Assembly (NCBI GenBank): GCA_946408385.1
Contig: CAMJSB010000002.1
Coordinates: 117,873-181,872, forward strand
Source: an uncultured bacterium
Lineage (GTDB): Bacteria; Patescibacteriota; Gracilibacteria; Absconditabacterales; Absconditicoccaceae
Length of the DNA: 64,000 nucleotides
Direction of reading: 5' to 3'
Positions 26,010 through 64,000 of the stretch are shown piece after piece. The notes beneath the pieces were generated by a model. The model was not told where the DNA came from, ran no database searches, and worked only from the letters and a program-made list of their open reading frames with translations. Numbering within the stretch: position 1 is the stretch's first letter; each line of letters opens with the position of its first letter. The translations under genes were made by a program, and so were the position numbers.

Positions 26010-27437
26010 ATGAAAAAAATTCACATTTCTATGATAAATCTCTGATGTAACAAAAATTTAGTAGATAGTCAGCTATTTTTGTGAAAACTTTTGGGTGAAA
26101 ATGGAGATAAAATCGAATATTATTCCGATCCTTACGAAAAAAACGTTGAAATTGTTATTCTCAATACATGTAGTTTCATTTCTTCTGGTCGTGAGGAAAT
26201 GTTTCAAACAGTAGAAAAACTACTTTCAAAAAAGAAAAAAGTCTGCATTATTTGATGTGGTGTTCAATATTTTGAAAAGCTGTTGAAATCATCCAGAACG
26301 ACCCAGAGCATAGCGAATGGGGAAGTGAAGGATCCAGGCAATACACCTATGGATTCTTCGGCTAATGCCTCAGAATGACAACTAAAACAGGAGCTTCAAA
26401 GATGGGAGAAAATGCTCAAAAATGAAGATATTTCTTATCTTTCACGAAATGATTTAACCCTCGCAAATTTGCAAAATCTCACGAAACGTAGTCAGACTTT
26501 CGATGATTTTTGTCGATATTCTGCTCCTAGATTGCTTACAAATTACGAGAATCGCTATGAATACCTCAAAATCGCAGAATGATGTAATAATTCCTGCGCG
26601 TTTTGTATAATTCCACAAATTAGGTGAAAACTAACTTCCCTACCAATTAAATCTGTTCTCGTAGAGGCAGAAAATCTACTCAAGCAATGAATAGAAGAAT
26701 TGATTATAGTTGCGCAAGATACAATGAGATATGGGACAGATTTTTCATCAAAATCCCAATTATTACCATTACTTCATGAATTAGACAAACTTCCATACGA
26801 TTTCAAATATCGCATTTTGTATTTATATCCAGATATTCTGACTCTGAAACAGCTGGAAGAATTCGCTAGTTTAAAGAAATTTATACCATATTTTGATATT
26901 CCATTGCAGCATATTTCTCCAAAATTACTCAAATCAATGGGGCGTTTTTATGATGATAAAATGATTCACATATTACTGAAATGAATTCGTAAACTATTTC
27001 CAAATTCATTTATTCGTACAAATATTATAGTTTGATTTCCATGAGAAACAGATGAAGATATGGAGCTTCTTCAATCATTTCTCGATGAAGATTATTTTGA
27101 TAATATAGCACTTTTTGAGTATCACGATGAACCATTGGCAAAATCTTCAGTATTCGAAAATAAGGTTCCTGACAACATTATTCAATCTCGCTTTAAAATA
27201 ATTCGCTGACAGGTAGATAAACTTTTGAAGGCTCGTGAAAAGAAAAGAAAATGAAAAAATCAGATTGGATTTGTAGAGTGAATTAAAGAGAAAAAAGGTC
27301 AGATTTTTCTTTCTATTCGTCCAGAGATTAATTGTCCAGAAATAGATCCAGTGGATGAAGTGAAACTGGAAAATGTAATTCAGTGTTTTGATGGGGAGGA
27401 GATTGAGATTGGCTCTAGGATTGAGTATGTTTGTTAG
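26010..27437 (+). CDS. rimO: Ribosomal protein S12 methylthiotransferase (radical SAM, MiaB/RimO family)
   Basis: [68 protein letters not shown]. Confidence 0.9.
26286..26384. repeat. Dispersed repeat element inserted in frame inside rimO
   Basis: ccagaacgacccagagcatagcgaatgg...gattcttcggctaatgcctcagaatgacaa encodes SSRTTQSIANGEVKDPGNTPMDSSANASEGQ. Confidence 0.8.
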
Positions 27438-37365: not shown

Positions 37366-38304
37366 ATGGAAATCAAAAAGATAGATACTACTACACAGAA
37401 ACAGACAATTCTTGCTTCTAGGCCAGATAGTTTTGATGATTTTATTGGGCAGTCTCATATCAAAAAGATGCTCCAAACAGCTATTATTAGTGCCAAAAAA
37501 AGAAACTGACCACTATGACATATTCTTTTTTCATGACCAAGCTGATTTTGAAAAACTACAATGGCTCATATTATTTCCCAAGAATTATGTGTAAATAATA
37601 AGGTAATTACAGCATACGCGATTTCCAAACCTAGCGAAATAGTCAGTATTCTCAATGCTTTAGAATCATGAGATATCTTATTTATCGATGAAATTCATCG
37701 TCTCAAGCCGAATGTGGAAGAGGTTCTTTATACAGCAATGGAGGACTTTGTGGTCGATATGGTGATGCCAGAGTGATGAAATATCAGAATTCCAATTAAT
37801 CCATTTACCTTAATCTGAGCCACTACAAAACCAGAAATGCTATCCAAACCGATGAAGAATCGTTTCGTTTATTCCTTCCATTTGGTAGATTACACTGATG
37901 CTGAAAAATCCATAATTATTCAGAGATATCTCCAGGTTTACGATGTTCATCACGATTCATCTATCCCATCAGAAATTGCCAAAAAAGTGGATTCAGTTCC
38001 GAGGGAAATTCATAATTTATGTATAAAAATTCGTGATTATTGCATAGAAAAATGAATTAAAAATCTGACTTCTTCAGAATTATCACAATTCTTCCAACAT
38101 GCTCAAATTCATGATGGAGGGTTGACTCCTCTACATGAGAGATATTTGGAAGTTTTAGCTCAATATGATAGACCGATCTGACTCAGAGTAATAGCTACAC
38201 AACTTTGAATGTGAGAAAAAGCTGTGGAAGATGATATTGAACCATTATTACTCAAACTCTGAAGAATAGAGAAAACTACACAGTGAAGAATCCTTTCTAG
38301 ATAA
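37366..38304 (+). CDS. ruvB: Holliday junction branch migration DNA helicase
   Basis: [21 protein letters not shown], Walker [22 protein letters not shown] (Gly = TGA), [46 protein letters not shown]. Confidence 0.93.
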
Positions 38305-40354: not shown

Positions 40355-41224
40355 ATGCAATCAGAACAAAAATACACACTCCAAAATATAGATTCATTCG
40401 AGTTAAACCATATCTTTGATTGTTGACAATGTTTTCGTCGAAATAAAGGAAAAGACTGAAGTTATACATGAATTTTCTGAAATAATATTTTAAACGTTCA
40501 AAAAAAAATTGATTCAATTGATTTTTCATGAATTGTTGACTGAGATATTAAATCTATTGTGGATCAATATTTTGACCTAGATAGGAATTATTCTAAAATA
40601 CAATCTCAGCTTTCGAAAGTAGATAAATATATGAAAGAGAGTATTCAATATGGACATTGAATCAGAGTTTTAAATCAAGATTTACGAGAAACTATAATTT
40701 CATTTATCATTTCTGCAAATAATAATATCCCAAGAATTAAATGAATTATCGAGAGATTGTCACAAAAACATTGAACAGAAATTGACCGAAATGGACAACC
40801 ATATTTTACTTTCCCAACAGCAGAGCAACTCAAAGACGTGAGCATTTCAGATTATAGAAAACTCTGATTATGATTTAGAGATCAAAGATTATACGAAACT
40901 ACAAGAATGATTCTTGATGGGAAAATAGACTTAAATTCACTCTATAAAAAAGATACCCAGACTGTTAAAAATGAATTATTAAATCTCAGTTGAATTTGAC
41001 CAAAAGTAGCAGATTGCATTCTCTTATTCTCTGACTTAAAAAGATTAGAAGTTTTTCCTATTGATGTACGAGTTCGTAGAGTAATGAACGAATTATATAT
41101 CCATAATCAAGATGAAACTAAAGTAAATAAAAATCAGATTCAAAAACTCGCTCACGAAAAATTTTGAGATTATGCATGATTGGCACAAGAATATCTTTTC
41201 TATCGAGCAAGGACAAAACTTTAG
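40355..41224 (+). CDS. 8-oxoguanine DNA glycosylase (OGG1-type HhH-GPD)
   Basis: FDCGQCFR[CGA]NK, QDL[CGA]ETIISFIISANNNIPRIKGIIERL, LLNLSGIGPKVADCILLFS, FPIDV[CGA]VRRVMNELY. Confidence 0.88.
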
Positions 41225-43425: not shown

Positions 43426-46092
43426 TTATTCTCCATCTTCCCATCTTTGGAAACGTTTAGATTTTTTCATGTACACAGACAAAATAGTTCAAATTCCAAT
43501 AAATATAGCTAATATCATTCACATTTCTTCCCAGATTTCAGCACTTAATGGCTGTAAATCAAACAATGTATTAATTCATGGAATGTAAACTACACCAAAG
43601 GCCAATCCAAATGCTCACAATAATGCTCAAATTAGCCATTTATTACTAAATAAACTTAATCCATACTGAGAACGAATAATCTGAATTTTAACTAATTCAC
43701 TCGCAGCCATAAATAGGAATACAGAGCTCCTAGCCATTTCTACATCTACATCATAATGTCTTAGGAATAGATATAAACTACCAATTACTACACTACTAGA
43801 AAGCAGAATAATATTCAATATCATTCTTCCATCGATTAGTCATTGACTAGCTTTACGAGGTTTACGATTCATTACATTTGGATTAATTGGATCTATTCAT
43901 AATGCAATTGCAGGTAATCAATCTGTAATTACGTTCAACCATAACAAATGAATTGCTAGTAGTGGAATAGGTACTCAAATCAAACTAGCTACGAATAGAA
44001 TTGCAATTTCACATATATTTGAAACTATCATATAGTTTACAAATTTTTGGATGTTGTCATAAATTCATCTTCATTCCTCTACTGCATTTACGATTGATTT
44101 GAAATTATCATCAGTTAGAATCATGTCAGCAGCTTCTTTGGTTACATCGGTTCCAGTGATTCACATTCATACTCCAATGTCTGCGGCTTTAATTGATGGT
44201 GCATCATTTACTCCATCTCACGTCATTGCCACTACATTTCATCTTCATCTCAAAATATTTACAATTTCCTGTTTGTCTGATGGATTTACTCTGGCAATTA
44301 CTCCTACAGTTTCGAGTAATTTGACTTTATTCTTAGACTTTTCAAAATCTGCTCCAGTAATTACATCTCCTTCGATTCCAAGTTCTCTTGCGATAGCTCA
44401 TGCTGTTACTTTATTATCTCATGTAATCATAATTACACGAATTCATGCATTTTTACATGTAGTAATGGAATCTTTCACTTCTTCACGTGGAGGATCAATC
44501 ATCGCTTGAAGTCCTACGAAAGTTAGATTCTTTTCTTCTTTTCATTCACCAAAAGCAAATCATAAAACTCTGAGTGCCTGCTCAGAGAATGTAGCAGCTT
44601 GATTGAGAATCTGCTTTTTCATATTTTTATCCAAATCTTTCACTTCTCAATTAATCAAAATTGTATCACACAATGGCAATAGTCATTCGATAGCTCATTT
44701 AGTATAAATCAGAATTTTTGGTAATTTTGAGATATAAGATTTCTTATATTTAGATTCATCAGCATTTTTACTTGATACTTTTCTAGCAAAAATCTCACTC
44801 ATCATTTTTCTCTCACTATCAAATGGAATTTCATCAATCCATTCCCAATCGTTGAGAAAATCTTCTTCTTTCATTCATGCTTTATATGCACTTACGAGCA
44901 ATGATCATTCTGTAGGGTCTCAAATTATTTCATTATTGTGTAATTTAGCAGTATTACACATCATCCCTATACTCAAAAGTGGGCGCAATCATTCAATTGG
45001 AGCGGAAAACTCTCACTTTGTAGAATATCATCTTCCAGTTACATCAACTATTTCTCCATTTACAAATAATTTCGTCACTGTCATTTCATTCTTCGTAAGA
45101 GTTCCAGTTTTATCTGTACAAATAATATTTACACTTCCAAGAGTTTCTACAGATGATAAACGTCTAACCAATACATTTTTCTTTACAAATCTTTTCACTC
45201 CTAGTCATAATGAAATGGTTACCACAGCCGGTAATCACTCAGGAATTGCAGCTACAGCTAAAGCAACAGCAGCCAAAAATGCCTGTTGAAAATCTATATG
45301 TGAAACTAGTCGATATACAATGAAAATAATTATACAAATCACAACAGCAGCGATTCAAAGAATCTTTGAAAGATTGTTCAGTTTTTTCTCTAGAGTTGTA
45401 GTTTTCTCCGGAGCATCTTCCAGCATTCATGCAATTTTTCACATTTCTGTATCCATTCCTATCGCAGTGACTACTGCTCTTCCGCGTCATTTAGTAGTCA
45501 TAGTCCCACTAAATACCATATTTTTCATATCGGCTAAGACGGAAGTTTCTCCAATTGTTGCAATATGTTTTTCTACAGGCACACTTTCTCATGTTAAAAT
45601 AGCTTCTTCTACTTCCAAATTTACAGCTTCAAAAAGTCTGGCATCTGCTGGAATTTTATCTCCAGCTTCGAGTAAAATCACATCTCAGATGGTCAATTCG
45701 CTTACATCTACTAAAGTTTCTTTTCCATCTCTGAGTACTTTCGCTTTTAATCATGCCATCTTTTTCAATGACTGAATCGCTTTATCAGCTTTATATTCCT
45801 GGAAAAATCATAGCAAAGCATTTAAAACAACCACAGCTCAAATAATGATAGCATCCATTCATTCTCCAATCAAAGAAGAAATTATCGCAGCAATAACTAG
45901 AATTATCACTAACGGCGATGTGAATTGAGACAAAAATATTTTGAAAGCAGAATTATTATTCTTTGATTGAATTGCATTTGGTCAGAATAATTCATTTCTC
46001 TGTTTTGCTTCTTTTTCAGAAATTCAATTTTCCGAAGTTTGCAATTCCTTAAGTAAATCACTAAATTCCATTTGATAAGCATTTTGTTTCAT
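43426..46092 (-). CDS. Cation-transporting P-type ATPase (P2/Ca2+-type)
   Basis: Minus-strand frame: [99 protein letters not shown]. Confidence 0.95.
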
Positions 46093-53133: not shown

Positions 53134-56035
<2,902 letters not shown>

Positions 56036-63946: not shown

Positions 63947-64000
63947 GCGGATATGATGTAGTTGGTGTAGCATAGCAGACTTCAGCTCTGCTTGTACGGG
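63947..64000 (+). tRNA. tRNA with anticodon UCA (candidate tRNA-Gly reading UGA), truncated by window end
   Basis: Acceptor 5' GCGGATA, D-stem ATGT/GCAT, anticodon stem GCAGA/TCTGC enclosing CTTCAGC; anticodon TCA at 63982-63984; 5' GCGG matches bacterial tRNA-Gly. Confidence 0.85.

Follow-up and report, generated by a model that had tools for sequence, protein, structure and literature searches.

A contig-end gene fragment assigned to the UGA-reading tRNA-Gly(UCA) of an SR1/Absconditabacteria bacterium

The DNA analyzed here, referred to as the window, is a stretch of 64,000 nucleotides (G000:C2:117873-181872, G000 being the assembly to which it belongs), and its final position, base 181872, is the last base of contig C2. 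The terminal bases 63947-64000 of the window, GCGGATATGATGTAGTTGGTGTAGCATAGCAGACTTCAGCTCTGCTTGTACGGG, form the beginning (54 nt) of a tRNA gene whose full length is 74 nt and whose anticodon is UCA (Table 1). The initial annotation had recognized the 5′ two-thirds of a tRNA at this place, in line with the match to the Rfam tRNA model RF00005, which spans exactly these bases and covers model positions 1-51 of 71, the 3′ end being cut. As expected for a truncated gene, the score of this match (26.7 bits, E = 0.0016) was just below the gathering score of 29 bits. The incompleteness of the gene also accounts for the absence of any tRNA call by ARAGORN within the 64-kb window. The acceptor strand, D-stem, anticodon stem and anticodon loop listed initially were all found, together with the 5′ strand of a T-stem.

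Table 1. Coordinates of the tRNA fragment, its parts and other features of the window.
Feature	Coordinates	Strand	Basis or remark
tRNA-Gly(UCA) gene, 5′ 54 nt, tRNA positions 1 to 53	63947..64000	+	contig-end truncation; Rfam match; identical to orthologue positions 1-54
5′ acceptor strand GCGGATA, positions 1-7	63947..63953	+	partner TATCCGC and U73 from orthologues
D-arm ATGT / loop AGTTGGTGTA / GCAT	63956..63973	+	sequence, Rfam match
Anticodon arm GCAGA / CTTCAGC / TCTGC	63975..63991	+	sequence, Rfam match
Anticodon UCA, expected to read UGA	63982..63984	+	unchanged in 14 distinct orthologous sequences
T-stem 5′ strand ACGGG	63996..64000	+	orthologues; partner CCCGT beyond contig end
RuvB	37366-38301		compared with solved homologue
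Ca-type P-ATPase	43429-46092	-	compared with solved homologue
RimO	26010-27434		compared with solved homologue
8-oxoguanine glycosylase ORF	40355-41221	+	CGA/CGG codons compared with 4ejy
Very long ORF, 2445 aa	12606-19943	+	table 25
Very long ORF, 1610 aa	21176-26008	+	table 25
Region almost without ORFs of at least 100 aa	52800-58000		table 25

Since the window ends with the contig, the tRNA gene is cut, and no extension is possible within its own genome. Neither a second copy nor an overlapping contig end was found in the same assembly with the last 25 bases of the fragment, allowing up to three mismatches. Completion of the gene downstream was assessed in orthologues. In a family search, the tRNA was present in 43 of 50 genomes and in all 27 of those of high quality (at least 90% complete and at most 5% contaminated). 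The complete orthologues have a length of 74 nt, and 59 of them were collected from close relatives, eight being identical to the fragment at 54 of 54 positions, e.g., GCGGATATGATGTAGTTGGTGTAGCATAGCAGACTTCAGCTCTGCTTGTACGGGTTCAAGTCCCGTTATCCGCT. These orthologues provide a 3′ acceptor strand UAUCCGC, U73 and a normal 5-bp T-arm, with no long variable arm. Over 14 distinct orthologous sequences, the stem positions hold 100% standard pairs, and compensatory double changes were observed at five acceptor pairs. The cloverleaf, with a 7-bp acceptor stem, D and anticodon stems and a 5-bp T-stem, is truncated in the window and complete in these 14 sequences. G1-C72, C2-G71, the anticodon UCA and U73 are invariant among them, G3-C70 is found in 13 of the 14, and the anticodon loop of the orthologues varies only at position 32.

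By class-wide BLAST, the tRNA sequence was recognizable essentially only inside the family, with a single 25-base T-arm match outside it. The holders found in a pattern scan of GTDB genomes were named candidate division SR1, Absconditabacteria, Gracilibacteria or unassigned bins; they include RAAC1_SR1_1, and one bin is labeled Peribacteria. In relatives, tRNA-Tyr, tRNA-Ala, tRNA-Arg(UCU) and tRNA-Glu(CUC) are encoded downstream, usually a few hundred bases on, and these same tRNAs are missing among the 31 tRNA matches of the present assembly, whose completeness is 88.55%. Because the downstream tRNAs of the relatives are exactly those lacking here, the contig break appears to have removed the adjacent segment, and the truncation is thus a matter of assembly. 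The 3′ 20 nt of this copy are missing from the assembly, their sequence here being that found in relatives. Judging from the latter, the sequence past the contig end is expected to run ...TTCAAGTCCCGTTATCCGCT, then to reach the tRNA-Tyr, -Ala, -Arg(UCU) and -Glu(CUC) genes within a few hundred bases.

In 2021, tRNAs(UCA) were classed as glycine acceptors by G1:C72, C2:G71, G3:C70 and U73 (PMC8629427). When this rule was applied here, the UCA anticodon and all of these determinants were found, G1, C2 and G3 being read from the window itself, and C70, G71, C72 and U73 being supplied by those orthologues that match the fragment at all 54 shared positions. The CGC at positions 70-72 and the U73 predicted initially are hence present in the orthologues, where they complete the pairs with G1, C2 and G3. 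The tRNA-Gly(UCC) of the same genome (GCGGGTG...CACCCGC-U) has the same three pairs and U73, which supports the glycine identity proposed in the initial annotation. As regards overall similarity within the genome, no tRNA was clearly the closest to tRNA(UCA), with 52 identities to tRNA-Leu and 51 to tRNA-Gly(UCC) over unequal lengths. The bacterial glycine determinants comprise G1-C72, C2-G71, G3-C70, U73 and C35, and C36 is also a determinant in bacterial tRNA-Gly (PMC9976931). As a counterpoint to the glycine reading, however, A36 stands here in place of C36, as any reader of UGA needs. One dimeric-type glycyl-tRNA synthetase (GlyRS) was found above cut-off in the genome (contig C6, about 53989-55413), which gave no match to the alpha-subunit type. 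Because a UGA reader has lost C36, anticodon recognition by GlyRS may have relaxed. That the single dimeric GlyRS of the lineage does charge both tRNA-Gly(UCC) and tRNA-Gly(UCA) through such relaxed recognition is a tentative suggestion, which we consider possible but rather doubtful.

The meaning of UGA was assessed in three proteins of the window, RuvB, the Ca-type P-ATPase and RimO, which were compared with solved homologues, UGA being read as X. In the best homologue, glycine occupied 35 of the 63 aligned UGA columns (56%, the background share being 6.6%; P about 4e-25), and neither Trp nor Cys was found in any of these 63 columns. The share was similar for columns coded by GGN, 21 of 31 of which hold glycine. 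When BLOSUM62 scores were summed over the UGA columns, glycine was the best of the 20 residues, with 174 versus 12 for the next. UGA was found at conserved glycine positions, as in NCBI table 25. Among these are the invariant glycines in the RuvB Walker A motif and in two motifs of the Ca-ATPase, TGES and TGDGVNDAP. In the 23 main ORFs of the window, UGA is the commonest glycine codon (779 of 1,130 glycine codons), and its frequency amounts to 55 per 1,000 codons. These ORFs end with TAA in 13 cases and TAG in 10. Table 25 had been used to call them, which by itself leaves no room for UGA stops, and the evidence lies in ORF length and homology. The initial reading of UGA as glycine in the window is sustained by these columns.

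No prfB (RF2) match above cut-off was obtained in the 50 family genomes. Sub-threshold matches were seen in 47 of the 50, with scores of 200-270 bits in the relatives. These matches were rejected as RF2: none reached the cut-off, and the one examined over its full length proved to be RF1, scoring 442 bits (prfA cut-off, 423) and carrying the tripeptide PET. This tripeptide is that of RF1, whereas RF2 would have SPF. In the family, RF2 is thus absent and RF1 kept, as in table 25. In the present assembly (88.6% complete) RF1 was not found, and the gene most likely lies in the missing part. SelA was absent in 50 of 50 family genomes. In the proposed mechanism, the lineage has lost RF2, the competitor that terminates at UGA, and the stop codons are UAA and UAG, read by RF1. 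The dimeric GlyRS would charge tRNA(UCA) with glycine via G1-C72, C2-G71, G3-C70, U73 and C35, and the UCA anticodon of the charged tRNA would then read UGA as glycine. For this particular tRNA, glycylation and decoding are proposed by analogy with published work on close relatives. The orthologues, the UGA columns and the absence of RF2 and SelA support the initial interpretation of the fragment as the likely decoding tRNA. The fragment is almost certainly the 5′ portion of a tRNA-Gly(UCA) gene that occurs once in an SR1/Absconditabacteria genome and whose product reads UGA as glycine.

Other identities were considered for this gene. The complete orthologues were printed by ARAGORN as ‘tRNA-SeC,’ a label due to their UCA anticodon, which would correspond to a tRNA-Sec inserting selenocysteine at UGA. 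Such an identity is extremely improbable, since the 7-bp acceptor stem and the 5-bp T-stem add up to 12 bp instead of the 13-bp acceptor/T domain required, and since the variable region has 4 nt and forms no long arm. It is refuted by the missing SelA and by the frequency of a codon that moreover falls at glycine columns, and the tRNA does not belong to the tRNA-Sec class, from which the initial annotation had also set it apart. The plain ARAGORN call is hence wrong in the present case. No more credit can be given to charging with tryptophan or cysteine, although UCA serves as the tRNA-Trp anticodon in mycoplasma, where UGA means Trp, and bacterial Cys identity includes U73 together with C35 and A36 (PMC9976931). 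Indeed, neither residue occurs at the UGA columns of the homologues, C2-G71 is found here versus G2-C71 in tRNA-Cys, and U73 is found versus the G73 used as Trp criterion in PMC8629427. Separate tRNA-Trp(CCA) and tRNA-Cys(GCA) exist as well, and glycylation has already been reported for SR1 according to PMC13293708.

The location of the fragment in the last 54 bases of the contig could also suggest a pseudogene or an assembly artefact. However, this is made exceedingly unlikely by complete orthologues that match the fragment at every position in separate assemblies, and by the fact that the tRNAs missing here are those downstream in relatives, as if the contig break had taken the adjacent segment. 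The tRNA-Gly(UCA) reading concerns a code and a tRNA known since 2013, and the initial annotation had missed that the system is well known.

The study of Campbell et al. from that year was published in PNAS (110:5540). As related in PMC13293708, the UGA = Gly code of SR1/Absconditabacteria (NCBI table 25) and the glycylation of tRNA-Gly(UCA) by GlyRS go back to this study. PMC8629427 counts UGA = Gly among the known bacterial codes and, for Absconditabacteria and Gracilibacteria, credits it to Campbell et al. (2013) together with Rinke et al. (2013). The present tRNA shares its anticodon, glycine acceptor determinants and lineage with the SR1/Absconditabacteria tRNA-Gly(UCA), without substantive difference, being the copy of another species truncated at a contig end. 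UGA also encodes glycine in the sister lineage Gracilibacteria/BD1-5, for which proteomics gave 97 peptides unique to UGA = Gly versus three for UGA = Trp (Hanke et al., 2014, PMC4032931), whereas the tRNA itself is too diverged for BLAST outside the family of the window, the T-arm match mentioned above excepted. In Mycoplasma and relatives, UGA is likewise read by a UCA anticodon after RF2 loss (PMC4695839), but this tRNA-Trp(UCA) carries Trp and not Gly. The expected decoding tRNA is thus confirmed in another member of a lineage of known code, which adds little as a discovery.

A further reassignment, CGA/CGG = Trp, was predicted for Absconditabacteria (PMC8629427). In the 8-oxoguanine glycosylase ORF, five CGA/CGG codons correspond to W, W, Y, W and Y in the homologue 4ejy and none to Arg, while two further CGA/CGG columns in other proteins gave one Lys and one unclear position. 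A tRNA(CCG) with a Trp-like G73 was found at G000:C6:65734-65804. CGA and CGG look like Trp codons in this genome. Since these data agree with the published prediction, the code is not fully described by NCBI table 25, and the window is to be read with UGA as Gly and CGA/CGG probably as Trp. Besides, two very long ORFs and several kb almost devoid of ORFs were observed in the window (Table 1).
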